Source: Chondrosia reniformis | Taxonomy: Eukaryota; Porifera; Demospongiae; Chondrillida; Chondrillidae | Length of the DNA: 64,000 bases | NCBI GenBank assembly: GCA_947172415.1 | Contig: OX359196.1 | Location: 7,769,901 to 7,833,900, forward strand | Reading direction: 5' to 3' | In this document: one piece after another, positions 2,143 to 56,300 of the stretch | How positions within the stretch are numbered: the stretch's first letter is position 1 | How the letters are laid out: each line of letters starts with the position of its first letter | Position numbers and translations under genes: made by a program | Notes under the pieces: generated by a model | Seen by the model: the letters and a program-made list of their open reading frames with translations, nothing else | The model's database searches: none | What the model was told of the DNA's origin: nothing

Positions 2143-2850
2143 ACGGGAGTTTCGTAATAATATAAATGGCCGACCTAGAGAAGGGAATATTGAAAATACG
2201 TTACTTTTATATGTATATTTGAATGACGAGAACGCTTTTAAAGATTTTAATGCACGTGGATATTCACTCTGTAATACTTGATTGTTTTGAAGTAGTATCT
2301 GTCCATATTATAATATATGGATGTCGCTAAAGTGAAAAATCGCCAATCGACTGCTAAAGAAACTCCAAAGGAAAAAAATTGGACCATACCGAACGCTACC
2401 ATCCACGACGCTCAGAGGCCGGGATCGGTGGTAACGCTCTGCCGAGTTGAGCTTTGGGTGTCACTTGCGTGAGAAGAACCAGTTCTTCTCGATATGGCCG
2501 ACTCATATGAATCCTAAGATATCAGATGCCAATCCCACATTACGTGGAACCCCCCCCGAAATCCGGATTATTGGTGAGCACGTCTCTATGGCACCAACCG
2601 ATTAGGAGACAGCTTCAGAGTCTAAGCGCTACCAACCTCTATGGGAACCGCAACCACCATAGAGATGTGTCCAGATAGGCCTACTATTATAAGGTTTTAT
2701 CTTCTATTTAAATAAAGTAATTGCCTATGAAAACGCTTGTGGTTGGCGAATCTTCAATACTTTAGAATAGGGTATTTTTCGATCTGCAGTAACTCGGGTA
2801 TCCTTTTTTGAAATTTTACAAAACTAGCAGGATATACTGTATAGTTATAT
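2143..2850 (+). repeat. Interspersed repeat, copy A, inserted in the satellite
   Basis: About 0.65-0.7 kb of non-satellite sequence interrupts the array. It is matched in inverted orientation by copy B at about 5210-5885. The best-kept part (about 2340-2690) is more GC-rich than its surroundings and contains GAGGCCGGGATCGGTGGTAA, GAGAAGAACCAGTTCTTCTC and ACCAACCGATTAGGAGACAG. It starts near GTTTCGTAATAATATAAATG and fades near 2790-2850 into a degraded satellite unit. No long open frame survives and no family is recognised. A small non-autonomous transposon or SINE-like element is possible. Confidence 0.75.
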
Positions 2851-4785
2851 GTGCATACAGCCAAGAGGTTTCAGCTTCATATCTTTCCAATTGACAGAGT
2901 TACGGCACTAAATGTACATTAAATTCTGCTATATGTACAAATTTAATGTATGGTGAGATATAGGGCAAATATGAGTAAACATCAAAATTTGTAAAACTCT
3001 TTGGATATGCTTTATGTATGTCTGTGAATGCTGACAGCAAGTTTCAGCTCCACATCTTTCCAATTGACAGAGTTACAGCACTAAATGCACATTAGATTCT
3101 TGTATACAAATTTAATGTATGGTGAGAGATAGGGCAAATATGAGTGAACATCAAAATTTGTAAAACTCTTTGGATATGTTTTATGGATGTCTGTGAATGC
3201 TGACAGCAAGTTTCAGCTTCACATCTTTCCAATTGACAGAGTTATTGAACTAAATGTACAATAGATTCTTGTATACAAATTTAATGTATGGTGAGAGATA
3301 GGGCAAATATGAGTGAACATCAAAATTTGTAAAACTCTTTGGATATGCTTTATGTATGTCTGTGAATGCTGACAACAAGTTTCAGCTCCACATCTTTCCA
3401 ATTGACAGAGTTACAGCACTAAATGCACATTAGATTCTTGTATACAAATTTAATGTATGGTGAGAGATAGGGCAAATATGAGTGAACATCAAAATTTGTA
3501 AAACTCTTTGGATATGTTTTATGGATGTCTGTGAATGCTGACAGCAAGTTTCAGCTTCACATCTTTCCAATTGACAGAGTTATTGAACTAAATGTACAAT
3601 AGATTCTACTATACAAATTTAATGTATGGTGAGAGATAGGGCAAATATGAGTGAACATCAAAATTTGTAAAACTCTTTGGATATGCTTTATGTATGTCTG
3701 TGAATGCTGACAACAAGTTTCAGCTCCACATCTTTCCAATTGACAGAGTTACAGCACTAAATGTACATTAGATTCTTGTATACAAATTTAATGTATGGTG
3801 AGAGATAGGGCAAATATGAGTGAACATCAAAACTTGTAAAACTCTTTGGATATGCTTTATGTATGTCTGTGAATGCTGACAACAAGTTTCAGCTTCACAT
3901 CTTTCCAATTGACAGAGTTACAGCCATTAGATTCTGCTATACAAATTTAATGTATGGTGAGAGATAGTGCAAATATGAGTGAACATCAAAATTTGTAAAA
4001 CTCTTTGGATATGCTTTAAGGATGTCTGTGAATGCTGACAGCCAGTTTCAGCTTCACATCTTTCCAATTGACTGAATTACAGCACTAAATGTACATTAGA
4101 TTCTTGTATACAAATTTAATGTACGTATGGCGAGAGATAGGGCAAATTTTGGTGGATATCAAAATTTTCAAAACTCATTGGAAACCTTTCATACATGTCT
4201 ATAAATGCTGGCAAAAAGTTTCAGCTTCATATCTTCCCATTTTATAAAGTTACAGCACTAAATGTACATTAAATTACTGGTATACGAAGATAATGTATGG
4301 TGAGAGATAGGGCAAATTTTGGTGGATATCAAAATTTGCAAAACTCATTGGAAACCTTTCATACATGTCTGTGGATGCTGACAAAAAGTTTCAGCTCCAT
4401 ATCTTAATATGTTAGAAAGTTACAGCACTAAATGTACATTAAATTACTGGTTAAGAAGTTAATGTATGGTGAGAGATAGGGCAAATTTTGGTGGATATCA
4501 AAATTTGCAAAACTCGTTGGAAACCTTTCATACATGTCTGTGAATAATGACATTGAGTTTCAGATTCATATCGATCCATTTGGAAGAGTTACAGAACTTA
4601 ATGTACTTTGAATTACTGCTATACAAAGTTAATGTACGTATGGTGAGAGATAGGGCAAATTTGAGTTGATTTCAAAATTTGCAAAATTCATTGGAAGCCT
4701 TTCATACATCTCTGTGAATACTTACACGATGTTTCAGCTTCATATCTCTCCATTTGACAGAGCTAAAACACTCTAATGTACATTA
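2851..4785. repeat. Satellite array, about 170-bp unit (second block, decaying edge)
   Basis: The same unit resumes after copy A. Units up to about 4080 are close to the consensus. From about 4140 to 4785 they form a diverged subfamily with GGTGGATATCAAAATTT, CATTGGAAACCTTTCATACA and ATCTTCCCATTTTATAAAG. A single decayed unit is also visible beyond copy B at about 5885-5965, with CTCATTGGAAACC and TGTCTGTGAATACTG. The array therefore once reached about 5.97 kb. Divergence rising toward the edge is the pattern expected when only the centre is homogenised by unequal exchange. Confidence 0.9.
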
Positions 4786-5209
4786 AATTTCTACTATACG
4801 ACCTTAAATGGTGTAGCATATATATCGTGCGATACTATTATGCAAATTATCGGGATACCAAGTTAAAATGTTTTGACATGAATGGGGCAACTAGAAACAC
4901 GCAGGGACAGTCCAGAACGCAGCTGTCAGAAGGTCTTTACATAGAGGCAGGTAGCCATTATGCTATTACTGCAATTGAGATTGAGTGTGGCTGGTTATAC
5001 CAGTTTACGTTCATATCGGAACACCTCTCGCTAAAATCGTTTCTACATGGGACCAGAAAAGTTGGTCTCCTCCGCCAATCAAGACACTTACAGGATTCTA
5101 TCCATTTTTCCCAGCTTCTAGATGAACCACGAATACTGGATATACCTTTAAAATGGCTTGGAACGATGCACTCATCGCGAATTAACTTGATATAATTTGA
5201 CTACATTTT
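4786..5209. other. Non-satellite stretch next to repeat copy B, with an unrecognised 139-codon frame
   Basis: This stretch lies between the last diverged satellite unit and the part of copy B that matches copy A. It has an open frame on the + strand (4776-5195) whose first codons overlap the satellite-derived AATGTACATTAAATT. The predicted 139 residues match no family I recognise. The segment may be the remainder of the element that copy A lacks, which would make the complete element about 1.1 kb (about 4790-5885, minus-strand orientation). Confidence 0.35.
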
Positions 5210-5885
5210 TCTCGCAAATACCCTATTCTTAAGTATGGAATTGCGCCAACCACAATCGTTTCCTTTTGAAATTTTCTTGTTTAAATAGAAGCGCAAAACC
5301 TTATAAAGTAGGCCTACCTGGACACATCTCTATGGTGGTAGCGGTTCCCATAGGGGTTGGTAGCGCTTAGACTCTGAAGCTGTCTCCTAATCGGTTGGTG
5401 CCATAGAGACGTGCTCACCAATAATCCGGATTTCGGGGGGGTTCCACGTAATGTGGGATTGGCATCTGATATCTTTAAGGATTCATATGAGTCGGCCATA
5501 TCGAGAAGAACTGGTTCTTCTCACGCAAGTGACACCCAAAGCTCAACTCGGCAGAGCGTTACCACCGATCCCGGCCTCTGAGCGTCGTGGATGGTAGCGT
5601 TCGGTATGGTCCAACTTTTTTTCTTTGGAGTTTCGTTGGCCGTCGATCGGCAAAATTTCACTCTAACGACATCCATATAATATATATGGACAGATACTAC
5701 TTCATCAATAATCAAGTGCTACACAGTGCATATCCCTGTGCATAAGAAATCTTTGAAAGCGCTCTAGTTTATCAGATATATATATAGTACTATAGTACTA
5801 TATAGTATTTAGTGTATACATAGTACTGAATTTTATGTAATACCTTCTTAAGGTCGGCCATTTTTGCTATTACGTAATTATCTGA
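5210..5885 (-). repeat. Interspersed repeat, copy B, inverted relative to copy A
   Basis: Reverse-complement match to copy A along most of its length. GGTGGTAGCGGTTCCCATAG, AATCGGTTGGTGCCATAGAG and GAGAAGAACTGGTTCTTCTC all have partners in copy A. Two short minus-strand frames (5314-5499, 5521-5715) are broken in copy A, so they are unlikely to be maintained. The far end, near AAGGTCGGCCATTTTTGCTA, matches the start of copy A. Together the copies form a long-range inverted repeat about 2.4 kb apart. Confidence 0.8.
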
Positions 5886-5965
5886 TATACGAACTTTTAA
5901 TATATGGCAAGAGACATAATTTTAAAACCTCATTGGAAACCTTTTATTCATGTCTGTGAATACTG

Positions 5966-31400: not shown

Positions 31401-34400
31401 GCAGTTCTTCAACAGTACCAGTACAACAAAGAACCATTTTCACACACGAGAATTGTCTATATCCAAAAGGATAGCTACGTATGTACGCACCTTTGTCTCT
31501 GCTTGACTGAATATACTCTCTTCAACCCTCTTTATATACTGCACTAGCTGTACATACTTGGGATTATGAGCCATGTCCTTAAAGCTCTGCACTGGATAAA
31601 TCTTATTCACACTACAACAGAACAAGAGAAAGTTCGACCTTTTCTATAGCAAGCTGATTGCAGAACCTTTAGGCCATAATGTGTAGACTGTATGTAACTC
31701 ACATTAATCTAATACACCCATTACGGAAATCTTGATTGCTCTTCCAAGATGATGCTTCACCTAAAGGGACCAAGCATATCATTAGTATTATGTTAAATCT
31801 GTATTTATATACATTTATACAGATATATATGTATAAGAACCTGCAGGAGGCTTGTTAATGATCCCTTTGACCGGCATGCAGATTGAGCAATCCTTCCTTC
31901 CACAGCTCTTCCAGTGCTGGATAATTTGTCTTGAAGACGCACAGTGCGGATCTGCATACAGAGTAAGGTTGGCTGACATGTACAGAAGTATCATCAACAT
32001 TGAACTCTGCATCAGAAGTAGGTACGTAGCTAGCAATTGTATGTCGTGATCAAAACTATCTTAAGAGTGTCAGCAATGACGGCATGTGACATGAGCATCT
32101 AATTCCTTGTGTAGACACTTACATTGTTGGTCTGGGTATAGTCTCGCATAGCCCAGACCGCTATCTCACCTCCATATTTATATTATGACGTCACACGGTC
32201 GGCGAGATAGGGTCTGGTCAATTGCCTATACCATTTTTGTTCTGGCCCCCGGAAGTTGGGGGCTCATTAAATATGCAGTTACCATGGAAATAATTATATT
32301 TATACGAGATACGCGTATGTAACGTGAACTCCACAAATCGTCTACGTACAAGATGAGTACTTCTAAATCTAGTGATCTTACGGGAATTCTTGTGGACGTT
32401 GCTAAATTGTTTGGTGTTGGGAGCTTTAAGGACAAGCAAATCGAAGCCTTTAAGGCCTTTGTAAGCGGGAAGGATACCTTGGATGATTGTCCAGGGTCAC
32501 TTATCTGCGTGACAGTATCTTCCAATTCAAGACGGAAGACCTTGCTAGGAGGAGTAGCTTTACAATCGATCGCGATCGCTCGGGGTGAGATTCACACGTC
32601 TAAATGCGTATGCGTTAGAAGTGTGTTTATCATCGCCTACCACTTCCGGAACACTTCGGGCCAGAACAAAAATGGTATAGGCAATTGACCAGACCCTATC
32701 TCGCCGACCGTATGACGTCATAATATAAATATGGAGGCGAGATAGCGGTCTGGGCTACGCGAGACTAGTCTGGGTATAGTAACTCAATATGAATGTCAGC
32801 TATGTACGAATGTATGTACATGCAGGAGGGCTACAAGTGTGTGTCTGTAAACTCACAGGGACAGTCCCTCTGTCTCATGCAAGAGGTCATGTGCTGGAGG
32901 ACACCCTTCATGACGTGGCAGTGAGGAAGGTTACAGTGATGTGGGTTACCGCTTTCTCTCTCCCGCTGAAGACACTTATTTGCATGCAGTAGTATGACCA
33001 GTTGCTGTTGGATCAGCTTGGTCTTCTCCTGGTCAGGTGAGTTGCCATGTGGCATCATGTCCCCCGTGTGGTAGGGATTTTCCTCCTTAACTGGACCCTA
33101 AGGAACAGACAGACACAATAGAGTCTTTTCATGCATCTACACTCACACACTATTACAACTACAACTACAAATTGTCATACAATGTACGTACCTTTAGGAG
33201 GTCTCTAGTGTCTCCATTCGGTATCTGCTTTGCTTGAGAAGCTAGTTCTCCTTCTACTCCACCAGATATTTGGGGGGGAACCCCTAGTGGCTGGGAATTG
33301 AATGAGACGCCTTGAGGTGGTCTGGCTGCTGGAAACTGACCTGGGGGTGCTGTGGACGAGGGTGGAATACCTTGTGACTGTGAAACTGATAGCTGATTTG
33401 GAAATGCTTGAATAGGGAGTGGCCCATTAGTCCCTCCCCCAGTGTCGCTCACTGGAGTGGGCTGAGGGATAGTCGAGTTGGATGCCTGCGACACAGCATC
33501 CAGAGGGTTAGTGTGCGTCATGGTGCTCTGTAGAGAGGAAGTGGGCTGTACAGTACGAGTCATGTTCCGAACGTCCACATTGGGAGGAGGGTTACTTGCT
33601 AATATTGAAGTGGTTGAGGCCACCGTCGTGGATACAGGCCCATGGGATGACGCAGTGGTGGGCGTGTGGGCCGCAGAGTTGGGGTGCCCGCTCTGCATGG
33701 AGGCTAGGTGACTGGTGGGCGGCTGAACAGGAGTGGGGGCAGCAGTGGTTGCCATGGGATACTGGGACTGAGGACCTTGTTGAGGTCCGTACCTCTCAGC
33801 CGCCATATAGCTGTTGTACCCGTGGTGCTGGTACTGTGAAGGAGGGTAGTGGGCAGCTGACTGGGGAGTCCCCTGTTGATGGTACTGGTTGGGGTAGGGC
33901 ATGTTGGCTGGTGGGTAACTGGGATTTACTCGGTTCATCTGTGGGTGCTGTCCGGGATGCATGGTCATACGAGTACCTGTAACCTGACTACCATAGGCGC
34001 CCGCAGTGTGTAAGTTGCCTCCGTGGTAGCCACTGTGATGGACAAACTGCTGTTGTGGGGGGAACCTCTGCTGCTGAGAGTGCAGGTACCCGGTGGAGGA
34101 TGGGCGTGCCCTTAAGTGCTCTTGGGAATGTGGCATTTGGGGGATACTTCTCGGATTCAACATCATTTGTTGTGCATCAGCACTTACAGGAAATTCACCA
34201 TTAACTGAGGAGGAAGACAAACAGAAGGCAGATATTTAGAACATGTACTGAGATGGATGAAAAGGCTTGTGGGATAAAGGAATATTAAAATATGGAGGAC
34301 ACATTAGGTAAATTCTTCTTAGGTTATGATGCAGCAAAAAAACTTAAGTCTTTTAGCACTGAAGCAATTAGATAATCAATATCAGCTATTTCCTTTAGTT

Positions 34401-35492: not shown

Positions 35493-38400
35493 CTAATCTA
35501 AATCTCTCGAAGCAGTTCCTTCTTTCCTGTTTCTTGGAGCAGTGAAGGTGATACACTGTAGACATTAGAGAAATCACTCGTTTTAGTTTATGAACTAGTT
35601 AAGTTACTACAATATTTAAATATAATTATTAAACAAAGCAATTTTGAGCATATTAAATTTTGCAAATTTGAAACAAAGATTATGTACTCAACATAGGTAT
35701 ATACATATAGGCCAGGAGTTGACACTATAGGCATATTGGAAATTTTAATACTGAGACTGATACTAGAAAGATATATTATAGCTAATATGCCAAGGATTCA
35801 CAGAAGATTAAGATAAAGAAAAAGACAAAGACTCCCAGGATCACTGATGAAGGGTGGAATTCCCAGAAACGGCTGTCTGACCCAGTGGAGAAGAAGATGA
35901 AGGAAAAGAAGGAAGAAAAGACTCCTGTATCTTTATCCAAAGCTCTCTTCAGGTTTAGTTCCCCTATAGGCTCTTTTACAGAATAGGCATAGCATGTAGG
36001 AAAATGGTATCTTTGATTTTTCATGTTCATAATTTTTATTTAAGCTTTCTACATCATTAGCCTATATGCACTACATGAGGAGGTTAACAGTTGAAATTGA
36101 AATGGCCGAATAACAGAACAATCCTTAGCATATGTATGAATCCTACCTGCTTATCCAAAACAGCCATCAGCTTTGCCTTGGACACATCTAGATCTGCCCT
36201 CTTCAGTTCCAAATGAAGATCTCCCAAAGGAATTGGCTATGTACATTGAGAAGAAGTATCATTCATTAAATGCTTAAAATTCTCAGTTGTGCAACATAAT
36301 GCCTTTACATTACACACTATCTCTTCTGCAAATGTTCACGTACTAAAACACATTACAAAACCAAAGTCACGATCTAGTGAAGTGACACAGTAGAGAACGT
36401 TTATTACTATTGTAAGTTGTTTTTCTTCAAAAGCAGCTTTCCAAACCTTGTATTGCAGAATTTCTGTCATCAAGTCTTTGTTATTTTGAATATACTTTAA
36501 CACTTTGTCCTCAATATCTTTGTCCTGTTTACTGTGCAACACCAATAAGTGGTTTATAATACGTACCAACAAACATTCAAAAACAAACAAATAAACATTC
36601 AGTTTACATGCTGATTTATCACCACACACAGCAGATACAAGGTGACATAGAATTACATCACCACGTTTTAAGTGGTCATCACGACTCATTGAATGGCACT
36701 CATATATAGACACATGGGATTCCTTTTCAATTTGAGGTCAACAATGGATTGTCTAGCAAGGGTAAAACAATGATGATTGTCTACTACAGGGGAAGGTGCT
36801 AATTAGAATCATTGTCTAGTGCAGGTAAACCATAAAAGGGTTGTCTAGCTCAGGTATACTAAAATGGCCGCCTAATACAGGTAAATTAAAATGGTCGCCA
36901 AACACAGGTGAACCTAAAATGGCCGCCTAGCACAGGTAAATCCTAAAAATGACCGCCTAGCACAGGTAAATCCTAAAAATGGCCGCCTAGCACAGGTAAA
37001 TCCAAAAATAGCCGCCTAGCACAGGTAAATCCAAAAATGGCCGCCTAGCACAGGTAAATCCAAAAATGGCCGCCTAGCACAGGTAGGTAGCCTTTAAAAC
37101 AGTTGCCTAATCTGCACAGTACATTCCTGTATGGCAGTCACACGACTGCATTTCCTGTTTATCCTTCTTCCTGTTTGGTCTCTTCTGGCCATTTTTCTGA
37201 CTGGCCCTATCAGTGACTTCATCAATAGTCACTTCTCTTCCTTGGTCTACAGGAGCATTAAGGAGACTACTTAATTACAACTGAAGTGTCTCTATAAATA
37301 TCATTACACAGTCACTTAGGTTGCTTGAAGAACACATTTAGTAAACATTCAAATATTCTTTAAAGACTTTCACTTTTGATAAACTAACTAGGAACTTCCG
37401 TGCAACCGGTTCAACAAGTAAGGAAAAATGGTTTCCAACAACTTTACCCCACATTCTCCTATATCCTCACTACTAATCCCCTCCTCCTCCACTTAACCCC
37501 TCCTCCTCCACTTATCCCCCTCCTCCTCCACTTAACCCCCTCCTTCTCCACTTATCCCCCTCCTCCTCCACTTATCCCCCTCCTCCTCCACTTATCCCCC
37601 TCCTCCTCCACTTATCCCCCTCCTCCTCCACTTATCCCCCTCCTCCTCCACTTATCCCCCTCCTCCTCCACTTATCCCCCTCCTCCTCCACTTATCCCCC
37701 TCCTCCTCCACTTATCCCCCTCCTCCTCCACTTATCCCCCTCCTCCTCCACTTATCCCCCTCCTCCTCCACTTATCCCCCTCCTCCTCCACTTATCCCCC
37801 TCCTCCTCCACTTATCCCCCTCCTCCTCCACTTATCCCCCTCCTCCTCCACTTATCCCCCTCCTCCTCCACTTATCCCCCTCCTCCTCCACTTATCCCCC
37901 TCCTCCTCCACTTATCCCCCTCCTCCTCCACTTATCCCCCTCCTCCTCCACTTATCCCCCTCCTCCTCCACTTATCCCCCTCCTCCTCCACTTATCCCCC
38001 TCCTCCTCCACTTATCCCCCTCCTCCTCCACTTATCCCCCTCCTCCTCCACTTATCCCCCTCCTCCTCCACTTATCCCCCTCCTCCTCCACTTATCCCCC
38101 TCCTCCTCCACTTATCCCCCTCCTCCTCCACTTATCCCCCTCCTCCTCCACTTATCCCCCTCCTCCTCCACTTATCCCCCTCCTCCTCCACTTATCCCCC
38201 TCCTCCTCCACTTATCCCCCTCCTCCTCCACTTATCCCCCTCCTCCTCCACTTATCCCCCTCCTCCTCCACTTATCCCCATATATCCCCCTAACACACTC
38301 ATTTCCCCTCTGCCACACACTAACACTTCATCTTACTAACCATCAACCAAAGGATGTAAGAATTCATAAATCTCTATCAGTTTAGCGATCATCTTCTTCT

Positions 38401-53372: not shown

Positions 53373-56300
53373 ATGCCGTTGGGTCACAGAAGAAGGAGCA
53401 TCACCGGAGGAGTACTGGACGACTGGTACACCTTAATACAAAAGACCATCATTGAATATCAGGTGAGACTGTCTCAGACACTGGACAGCAGTTTCCTATT
53501 GACCCCTATTTGTTGTTGATTGAGTAGTAACCAGTCCTCAACCACAGACTAGCTGTGACCCGATATAGTTGTTACATCTCTGTTCTGTCCTCCCGTATGT
53601 GCTGAAGGATCCGGTGACCGGTCTCTCCCCTGCCTTCCTCTTCAGTGACGGGAGCTCCACCTCCGATGCTTGGGTGAGAGACAACACTTACACCTCATTA
53701 TGTGGGTGGGCGTTGTCCCTTGCATACAAGAAACTTCACGACTCAAAAGAGAGTATATCGCGAGCTCTTGAACTGGAGCAGGTCAGTTATATACTGTACA
53801 AGTGTGGGACATATAGACATGTACGTACGTATATACCTATTTTTATTGTGTACCAATGTGTGTGTGTATATCTTTGGGATGGTACATCCTTCGACTTTTG
53901 AGCGTTTAAAAACGCAGTTGGTTTTCGATTCTTCGTCAAACGTTTCGACCCTGGGGGTCTTCCTCAGTGACTGATGGTTGAGTGGAAGAATTGCCTCTAT
54001 TTATAGAGGATTTTTAAATGCTCAAAAGTCGAAGGATGTACCATCCCAAAGATAAGTTCAACGCAGTTATAAGGAATCCTTATTCTATTGTGTGTGTATA
54101 TACCTCATGCAATAATATTTATTAAAGTAACACATTCCGAATACAAGCACAAGGACCATGAGTCACTATAGTGATTTGATATTTATATAAGTCTTCTCTA
54201 TTGAAATTGAACCAGTACAGTGTATATGGCATAATAATTATATTATTGTTACACCTAGGTACGTATATTATACATACGTGCATGTATAGTTATGTACGTA
54301 CATTTGTATATTGGTGTGCACTTTAAGGTTGTTGTGAAGCAGATGAGAGGTCTCCTGTTTTGTATGATGAGGCAAGTTGGAAAAGTTGAGAAATTCAAGT
54401 CTTCTCAATCCAAGATGCACTCTTTGCATGCTAAATACAACAGAAGTCAGTCAGCAGACTTAACTGTATATAAGAATGTGATGTTAAGTGTGTCAAGTTG
54501 TTCACTTGTGATAAACTGACTCTTTCCCATGTTTAGAAACAGGTGCACCTGCTGTCGGTGACCACCAGTGGGGGCACTTGCAGATTGATGCAACCTCACT
54601 CTACCTCATTATCCTAGCTCAAATGACAGCCTCTGGTAAGTACTGCACATTCCACTGCCTCACTTGGTAGGTACATACATACGTATGTATACATCGTAGG
54701 ATTGCAGATTATATATTCGCTGGATGAAGTGGCTTTTGTGCAGAATTTGGTGTTTTATATTGAAGAGGCTTACAGAATACCAGTAAGTGTGATAGTCATT
54801 TAATGGGTATGACCCTGCTCGTTTGATCTGCCCCTCATGCCTACTGTACCATGATGCATTAAACATGTACATGCTGTGCTGCTATTACCAGCTCTAACAT
54901 GTGGCAGGACTATGGGATATGGGAGAGGGGAGACAAGAGCAACAATGGAGAACCAGAGCTGAATGCTAGCTCCATTGGAATGGCCAAGGTACCTACCTCT
55001 GTCTACTAATGGACCTCACTTGTGACTTGTCTTGTGTGTCAAGTGCTAGTCTTATTAAACACTTGTGGTTTGATTATCAATCTTGTATTAAACAGGCTGC
55101 TTTGGAGGCACTGGATGGTTTGGATTTGTTTGGTTCAAGGGGGGGTCCCTCTTCAGTGATACACATTCTGGAGGACGAGGTGCAGCAGTGCAACGTAAGA
55201 GAAACTGTTGTTGAAGATAGTGTGTGAAAATCTGTTGGACATGTATTGTTTGTATGCTCCAGGCGAAGCTGGAATCATTATTACCCAGAGAGTCTAGTTC
55301 AAAGGTCAGTTGACATTCTATGTGTGTATAATGGATGGAGGACAAGATTGTGGTTACACTATCTCTGGTCTGTTAGGAGACAGATGCTGCTCTCTTGGCT
55401 ATCATTGGGTATCCGGCCTTTGCTGTTGAGAAGGGTTCTCTGGTGAGTCAGGTGAAGGAGGAGATCCTCTCCAAGCTGCAAGGAAAGTATGGCTGCAAGC
55501 GCTTCCTCAGGGACGGATACCAGACAGTCAAAGAGGTCAACCATCTCCTTTAACTAAGCACATCCACAGTCTAGTGATATTCTATGAGATGTATACTGCA
55601 GCTAATAATATTATATGTATACTGCAGCTAATAATATTATATGTATACTGCAGCTAATAATATTATATGTATACTGCAGCTAATAATATTATATGTATAC
55701 TGCAGCTAATAATATTATATGTATACTGCAGCTAATAATATTATATGTATACTGCAGCTAATAATATTATATGTATACTGCAGCTAATAATATTATATGT
55801 ATACTGCAGCTAATAATATTATATGTATACTGCAGCTAATAATATTATATGTATACTGCAGCTAATAATATTATATGTATACTGCAGCTAATAATATTAT
55901 ATGTATACTGCAGCTAATAATATTATATGTATACTGCAGCTAATAATATTATATGTATACTGCAGCTAATAATATTATATGTATACTGCAGCTAATAATA
56001 TTATATGTATACTGCAGCTAATAATATTATATGTATACATACTAATAATAATATTGTAAATGTATTAGACTGAACTTACATAAGGTATGTGTGTGATTTG
56101 TACACTATAATGTGTGTATTGTCTGTTAATGATGCAGGATCCCTCCCGCCTCTATTACCACCCGTCTGAGCTGAAAGGTTTTGAGAACATAGAGTGTGAG
56201 TGGCCTGTCTTCTTTGCCTACCTTATGATTGACGGCATCTTTACCAACAACTTGTCACAGGTGACTGAATATATGCATTTCCTCTCCTCCTCCTCCCCCT

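Follow-up and report, generated by a model that had tools for sequence, protein, structure and literature searches.

An internally deleted transposon in an intron of Chondrosia reniformis and its probable helicase-encoding parent

Mutator-like elements (MULEs) typically bear long inverted repeats and are flanked by 9-bp duplications. Helitrons are not known to have inverted repeats or target duplications. AcademH transposons reportedly come from animals and fungi, going by the title of a 2020 paper by Kojima. In PMC10045372, the duplications of AcademH are given as 9 or 10 bp and those of AcademX as 3 or 4 bp, and this length is suggested to be related to the helicase or nuclease that AcademH and AcademX encode. 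KolobokH carries a RecQ helicase and is reported from fungi only, and the RecQ helicase of Kolobok-1_CCri lies on the complementary strand (PMC9587614).

The window analyzed here, a stretch of 64,000 nucleotides from the sponge Chondrosia reniformis, contains a short element of a family that shares with AcademH, as described in PMC10045372 and PMC10799480, its 9–10 bp duplications, a helicase within the element and inverted repeats. The family differs in that the copies seen are all deleted or decayed; the comparison with AcademH covers duplication length, helicase and inverted repeats. Long inverted repeats and 9-bp duplications are also found in MULE/MuDR elements, but here they occur with genes for a RecQ-like helicase and a DUF6589 protein, with no MULE transposase found near the termini. 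A RecQ helicase alongside a transposase is likewise the arrangement of KolobokH and Kolobok-1_CCri, whose duplications, in the same source (PMC9587614), are instead the 4-bp TTAA. Like MITEs, the element is short, multi-copy, devoid of a working gene and provided with strong inverted repeats; unlike them, it has a parent whose successive pieces can be traced within this genome. The window element is very probably a cut-and-paste DNA transposon, both internally deleted and non-autonomous, derived from a parent that encoded a helicase and a DUF6589 protein and fits best within the AcademH lineage.

The element and its host intron

The element occupies window positions 32139–32767 and measures 629 bp, the length given in the earlier note. 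The features of the region are as follows.

~31863..31955, minus strand: host frame containing the second TAZ zinc finger half (zf-TAZ profile positions 49–72; limits approximate)
32130..32138, unstranded: left copy of the target site duplication, 9 bp, GTCTGGGTA (direct-repeat comparison and sister-copy termini)
32139..32248, plus strand: left terminal inverted repeat, 110 bp, starting TAGTCTCGC (inverted-repeat alignment)
32353..32477, plus strand: 5' portion of a RecQ-like helicase gene, which begins at the start codon and stops immediately short of the LPTGYGKS motif (sibling extension with DEAD match)
32478..32569, minus strand: middle piece, derived from the parent's opposite end (L032 1503–1592, 89%)
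32574..32767, unstranded: piece from the parent's right end, within which the right terminal inverted repeat lies (L032 1947–2134, 88%)
32658..32767, minus strand: right terminal inverted repeat, 110 bp, finishing GCGAGACTA (inverted-repeat alignment)
32768..32776, unstranded: right copy of the target site duplication, 9 bp, GTCTGGGTA (direct-repeat comparison and sister-copy termini)
32855..33097, minus strand: host frame containing the first TAZ zinc finger half (zf-TAZ profile positions 1–47; frame limits, not mapped splice sites)

The terminal inverted repeats (TIRs) are long and well preserved, as had been noted, but their gap-free length is 110 bp (97% identity, 3 mismatches) rather than 120 bp; in the fold, pairing extends beyond these 110 bp with an unpaired bulge. 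As expected from such long inverted repeats, the single-stranded element folds far better than shuffled sequences (n=20, z −18). A 21-bp terminal motif occurs at only two places in the window, both of them element ends, a count reached by 0 of 100 shuffles. The direct repeat around the element matches over 13 bp (GTCTGGGTATAGT), including the 9-bp GTCTGGGTA, because the right flank starts with TAGT, as the terminus does. Since the element termini are the same as in other copies, the duplication is 9 bp, and the perfect 9-bp direct repeats reported on both sides of the element are confirmed at that length. The duplications GTCTGGGTA (window 32130–32138) and GTCTGGTGT (copy L006) resemble GTCTGGGC within the element's own terminus, possibly by chance.

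The intron that holds the element divides a TAZ zinc finger between the minus-strand frames 33097–32855 and ~31955–31863. The two zf-TAZ halves on either side of the intron agree with the claim that the element had inserted between exons of this domain, while the identity proposed for it, TAZ1 of CBP/p300, is presumed from similarity together with the zf-TAZ domain. Elsewhere in the window, a satellite-like 169-bp unit is repeated in tandem over two long arrays at positions 2–2143 (12.5 copies) and 2868–4789 (11.3 copies), a 20-bp unit is repeated 40 times at 37478–38279, where the copies are 99% alike and three plus-strand frames stay open, and a 26-bp unit is repeated 17 times at 55589–56038 with 100% identity.

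Copies, duplications and age of the family

The genome searched comprises 117,379,552 bases in 15 contigs. A 671-base query gave at least 133 matches (best 40 of 186 candidates scored), and a 22-bp terminal motif, allowing 3 mismatches at most, was located at 171 sites (90 + 81), versus 1 (0 + 1) for the reversed control pattern. Judged by eye among ~100 of the 171 sites listed, at least 12 pairs of terminal motifs stand merely 63–146 bp apart (e.g., C1:6847549-6847654 and C8:5094383-5094484); with paired ends this close, these would be near-pure palindromes, the extreme of internal deletion.

Target site duplications were scored in 28 two-ended copies from all subfamilies, a non-random sample consisting of the best matches fetched. 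They are 9 bp long and varied in sequence, perfect in 21 copies and matching at 8 of 9 positions in three more (L003, L045 and L047); no good duplication was found in the remaining four (L008, L030 with 7 of 9, L038 and L064). Strict automatic ends yield 20 of 28, L029 having been added after its end was reset as in the family-A comparison. Within family A the duplication is perfect in 14 of 17 two-ended copies, the exceptions being L003, L008 and L030. The genome-wide TIR search proposed in the earlier note has returned many TIR copies and 9-bp duplications, together with longer copies in which the helicase is continuous with the terminus.

Sequence identity was compared for 11 of the 17 family-A copies. 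The closest relatives of the window copy are L002 (98.1% base for base) and L003 (97.9%), or 94 and 93% counting gaps, both of the same deletion type; the eight other compared copies are 88–90% identical to it, and 8 differences over 616 columns are private to the window copy. The insertion had been described as recent, which holds to a moderate degree only, given 3 mismatches in 110 TIR positions and a base divergence of ~2% from each of its two nearest full-length sister copies. In relative terms, moderately recent is a reasonable description.

The helicase, the long copies and internal deletion

The RecQ-like trace previously noted in the element carries no significance on the window frame alone: the 111-aa frame has no Pfam matches, and its first 42 residues have no PDB matches at E<=10. 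The case therefore rests on sibling copies, which prolong this frame into LPTGYGKS and ISPLTSL. The sibling helicase frame matches Pfam DEAD (3.1e-8) and, in the PDB, BLM best (3.3e-6) and RECQ5 next (8.4e-5), which bears out the RecQ-like character of the trace. Subfamily B includes four copies of 745–747 bp as well as L064 (724 bp) and L066 (1369 bp), with termini 89–90% identical to those of subfamily A over 91 bp, except in L064, where identity is 77–78%. The L066 frame has a DEAD match of 4.3e-16, and the helicase fragments of the two subfamilies are 44–45% identical. Weak traces of the helicase start are also present in older copies (L047, C9). The occurrence of this start in diverged A, B and older copies indicates that it is ancestral to the family and not the product of a single capture.

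In two other long copies, L018 (1079 bp) and L023 (1574 bp), no helicase C-part or transposase was seen by eye in the plus-strand frames. A weak helicase match at C9:2.769 Mb led to a 522-bp element, diverged but similar at its termini, for which no duplication was found, and another at C6:3.402 Mb is accompanied by terminus-like fragments; an autonomous copy was not found in either region. The interval C9:4754460-4795594 holds a tandem helicase cluster with five DEAD-domain matches in ~41 kb; for four of these matches the surrounding frame is open over 730–742 aa. In L039, a 1053-aa frame at 2771–5932, judged by eye to resemble the reverse transcriptase of a retroelement, lies close to a diverged element whose termini are similar.

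A decayed copy on C3 (L024, L057) starts with a family-A terminus (95.7% identity over 70 bp), and L057 is 85.5% identical to the window element over 345 bp. Reading inward, L057 presents the terminus, the N-part of a RecQ-like helicase and its C-part, which together make up most of that protein, and then, on the opposite strand, a DUF6589 match (5389709–5390020, E 1.4e-9) that falls partly within the L057 sequence analyzed; the far terminus was not seen in the analyzed part. The helicase frames of L057 are broken and contain ISPLTSLLIDQ, TATAT and FGMGIDCPD, which we take to be helicase motifs; motif II was not recognized in this copy. One L057 frame gave a Pfam Helicase_C match of 8e-4, below the cut-off, an 89-aa frame overlapping the DUF6589 match gave just DUF4116 (E 0.22), and three more frames gave nothing. 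The TATAT frame matches other helicase C-parts in the genome, and the frame overlapping the DUF6589 end recurs directly after DUF6589 on C5 (38%, E 1.5e-9) and, weakly, on C4 (E 0.12). In a decayed copy on C2 (L032), the helicase C-part, 86% identical to that of L057 over 171 bp, is followed by a minus-strand 145-aa frame and then by the other terminus. The 145-aa frame, the putative start of the transposase, has no Pfam match and shows a weak resemblance (28%, E 0.028) to the region before DUF6589 on C14. Both long copies are decayed, and no complete, intact autonomous copy was found. The order of the parent was assembled by description, not as a joined sequence, from the analyzed parts of these two overlapping copies, which suggest terminus, helicase, facing DUF6589 gene and terminus, with the DUF6589 gene probably reaching the second terminus.

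The window copy consists of three parent pieces: element bases 8–339 correspond to L057, 340–431 to L032 1503–1592 and 436–629 to L032 1947–2134. It is therefore an internally deleted, non-autonomous transposon, whose interior includes pieces of the parent's opposite end that were not visible in the first reading; the middle piece, on the minus strand, may be part of the transposase-side gene. Six other derivatives have other junctions, near 467–472 in L004, at 454/456 in L005, at 268 in L029 and at 595/597 in L030, with one junction common to L016 and L021, indicating that internal deletion has been repeated. Besides L032, the window's middle piece was found at no fewer than five places, on C12, C10, C8 (the window), C14 and C6 (best 40 of 1107 candidates), and these copies are 92–100% alike across the junctions as protein, C10 in part. 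The presence of one deletion form at five places indicates that this form itself multiplied, and hence that it was presumably moved in trans.

The sequence of events that we propose starts from a parent with inverted repeats beginning TAGTCTCGC, in which a RecQ-like helicase gene would point from one end towards the interior. Facing it on the opposite strand would be a gene with a DUF6589 domain, its start presumably near the other terminus. Deleted copies may arise from such a parent through interrupted gap repair. The parent's proteins would act in trans on the repeats and move the deleted copy into the intron, an insertion that would leave the 9-bp duplication.

DUF6589 and the placement of the family

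DUF6589 has 12 matches at eight places in the genome, four of which have a match over the cut-off (C14, C1:4.94 Mb, C3 and C5:4.64 Mb). A RecQ-like helicase match lies within 6 kb of DUF6589 at five of the eight places, versus 0.05 expected by a rough Poisson estimate from the 61 helicase matches. With only ~6 kb between them, the two C5 places are possibly not independent, and a more cautious count is four loci. The helicase and DUF6589 genes are oriented towards each other at C3, at both C5 places and at C2, and point in the same direction at C14; the pair was seen joined to family termini at C3 only. The other three DUF6589 places, two on C1 (one over the cut-off) and one on C4, are without a nearby helicase match. 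That DUF6589 might be the Academ transposase was supposed at the outset, and no mention of the domain was found in the papers searched. The observed co-location makes the DUF6589 protein a candidate Academ transposase. We lean towards the view that transposons with a helicase, whether AcademH or a sister group new to science, use it as their transposase and encode it in a gene that faces the one for the RecQ-like helicase.

An alternative raised in the earlier note, that a MULE had taken up part of a RecQ helicase gene from the host, would account for the long inverted repeats and 9-bp duplications, both typical of MULEs, and the genome does contain MULE-transposase domains (nine PF10551 matches, eight over the cut-off). 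However, none of the nine lies within 28 kb of any of the 61 helicase matches, and by eye none lies within 20 kb of the ~100 of 171 termini listed or of the matches to the 671-base query; a MULE/MuDR parent is rejected as far as this comparison of PF10551 and helicase positions extends. Capture also sits poorly with longer copies that extend the helicase, and with a helicase start that lies inward of the same terminus type in both A and B at ~45% identity, leaves traces in older copies and thus appears ancestral. We regard it as quite improbable. The other option in that note, derivation by internal deletion from an AcademH-like transposon that encodes a helicase, gains support from the TIR copies, the 9-bp duplications, the terminus-linked helicase and the long decayed copy.

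Derivation from KolobokH or a Helitron is hardly credible, as inverted repeats and duplications are both present here and neither is known from Helitrons. KolobokH and Helitrons do carry helicases (PMC9587614; PMC10799480), but the Kolobok duplications are given as TTAA in PMC9587614, against 9 bp, varied in sequence and perfect in 21 of 28 copies here. It is unlikely, though less so, that the same anatomy stands outside Academ, with DUF6589 as the transposase of a separate superfamily. This reading overlaps the AcademH one and differs from it in family name only, and the DUF6589-helicase pairing holds whichever superfamily is chosen; the duplication length and the helicase agree with AcademH as characterized in PMC10045372. 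Three of the features by which AcademH is described are present in this family as duplications perfect at 9 bp in 21 of 28 copies, a helicase whose N- and C-parts lie inward of the terminus in the decayed L057, and terminal inverted repeats of 110 bp at 97% identity; for the Academ-type DDE transposase there is a candidate in the DUF6589 match facing the helicase. The 9-bp duplications together with the helicase argue for AcademH and against gene capture by a Mutator-like element, and AcademH is probably the best home for the family.

In this sponge, a short intron element could be traced to a helicase-carrying parent within one genome. The position of DUF6589 next to a RecQ-like helicase provides a concrete candidate for a domain of unknown function. 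If the assignment is true, it would give this orphan domain a function, and the link between the co-encoded helicase and the 9-bp duplications would become testable, the helicase and DUF6589 proteins being a candidate enzyme pair that may set the duplication length in this lineage.
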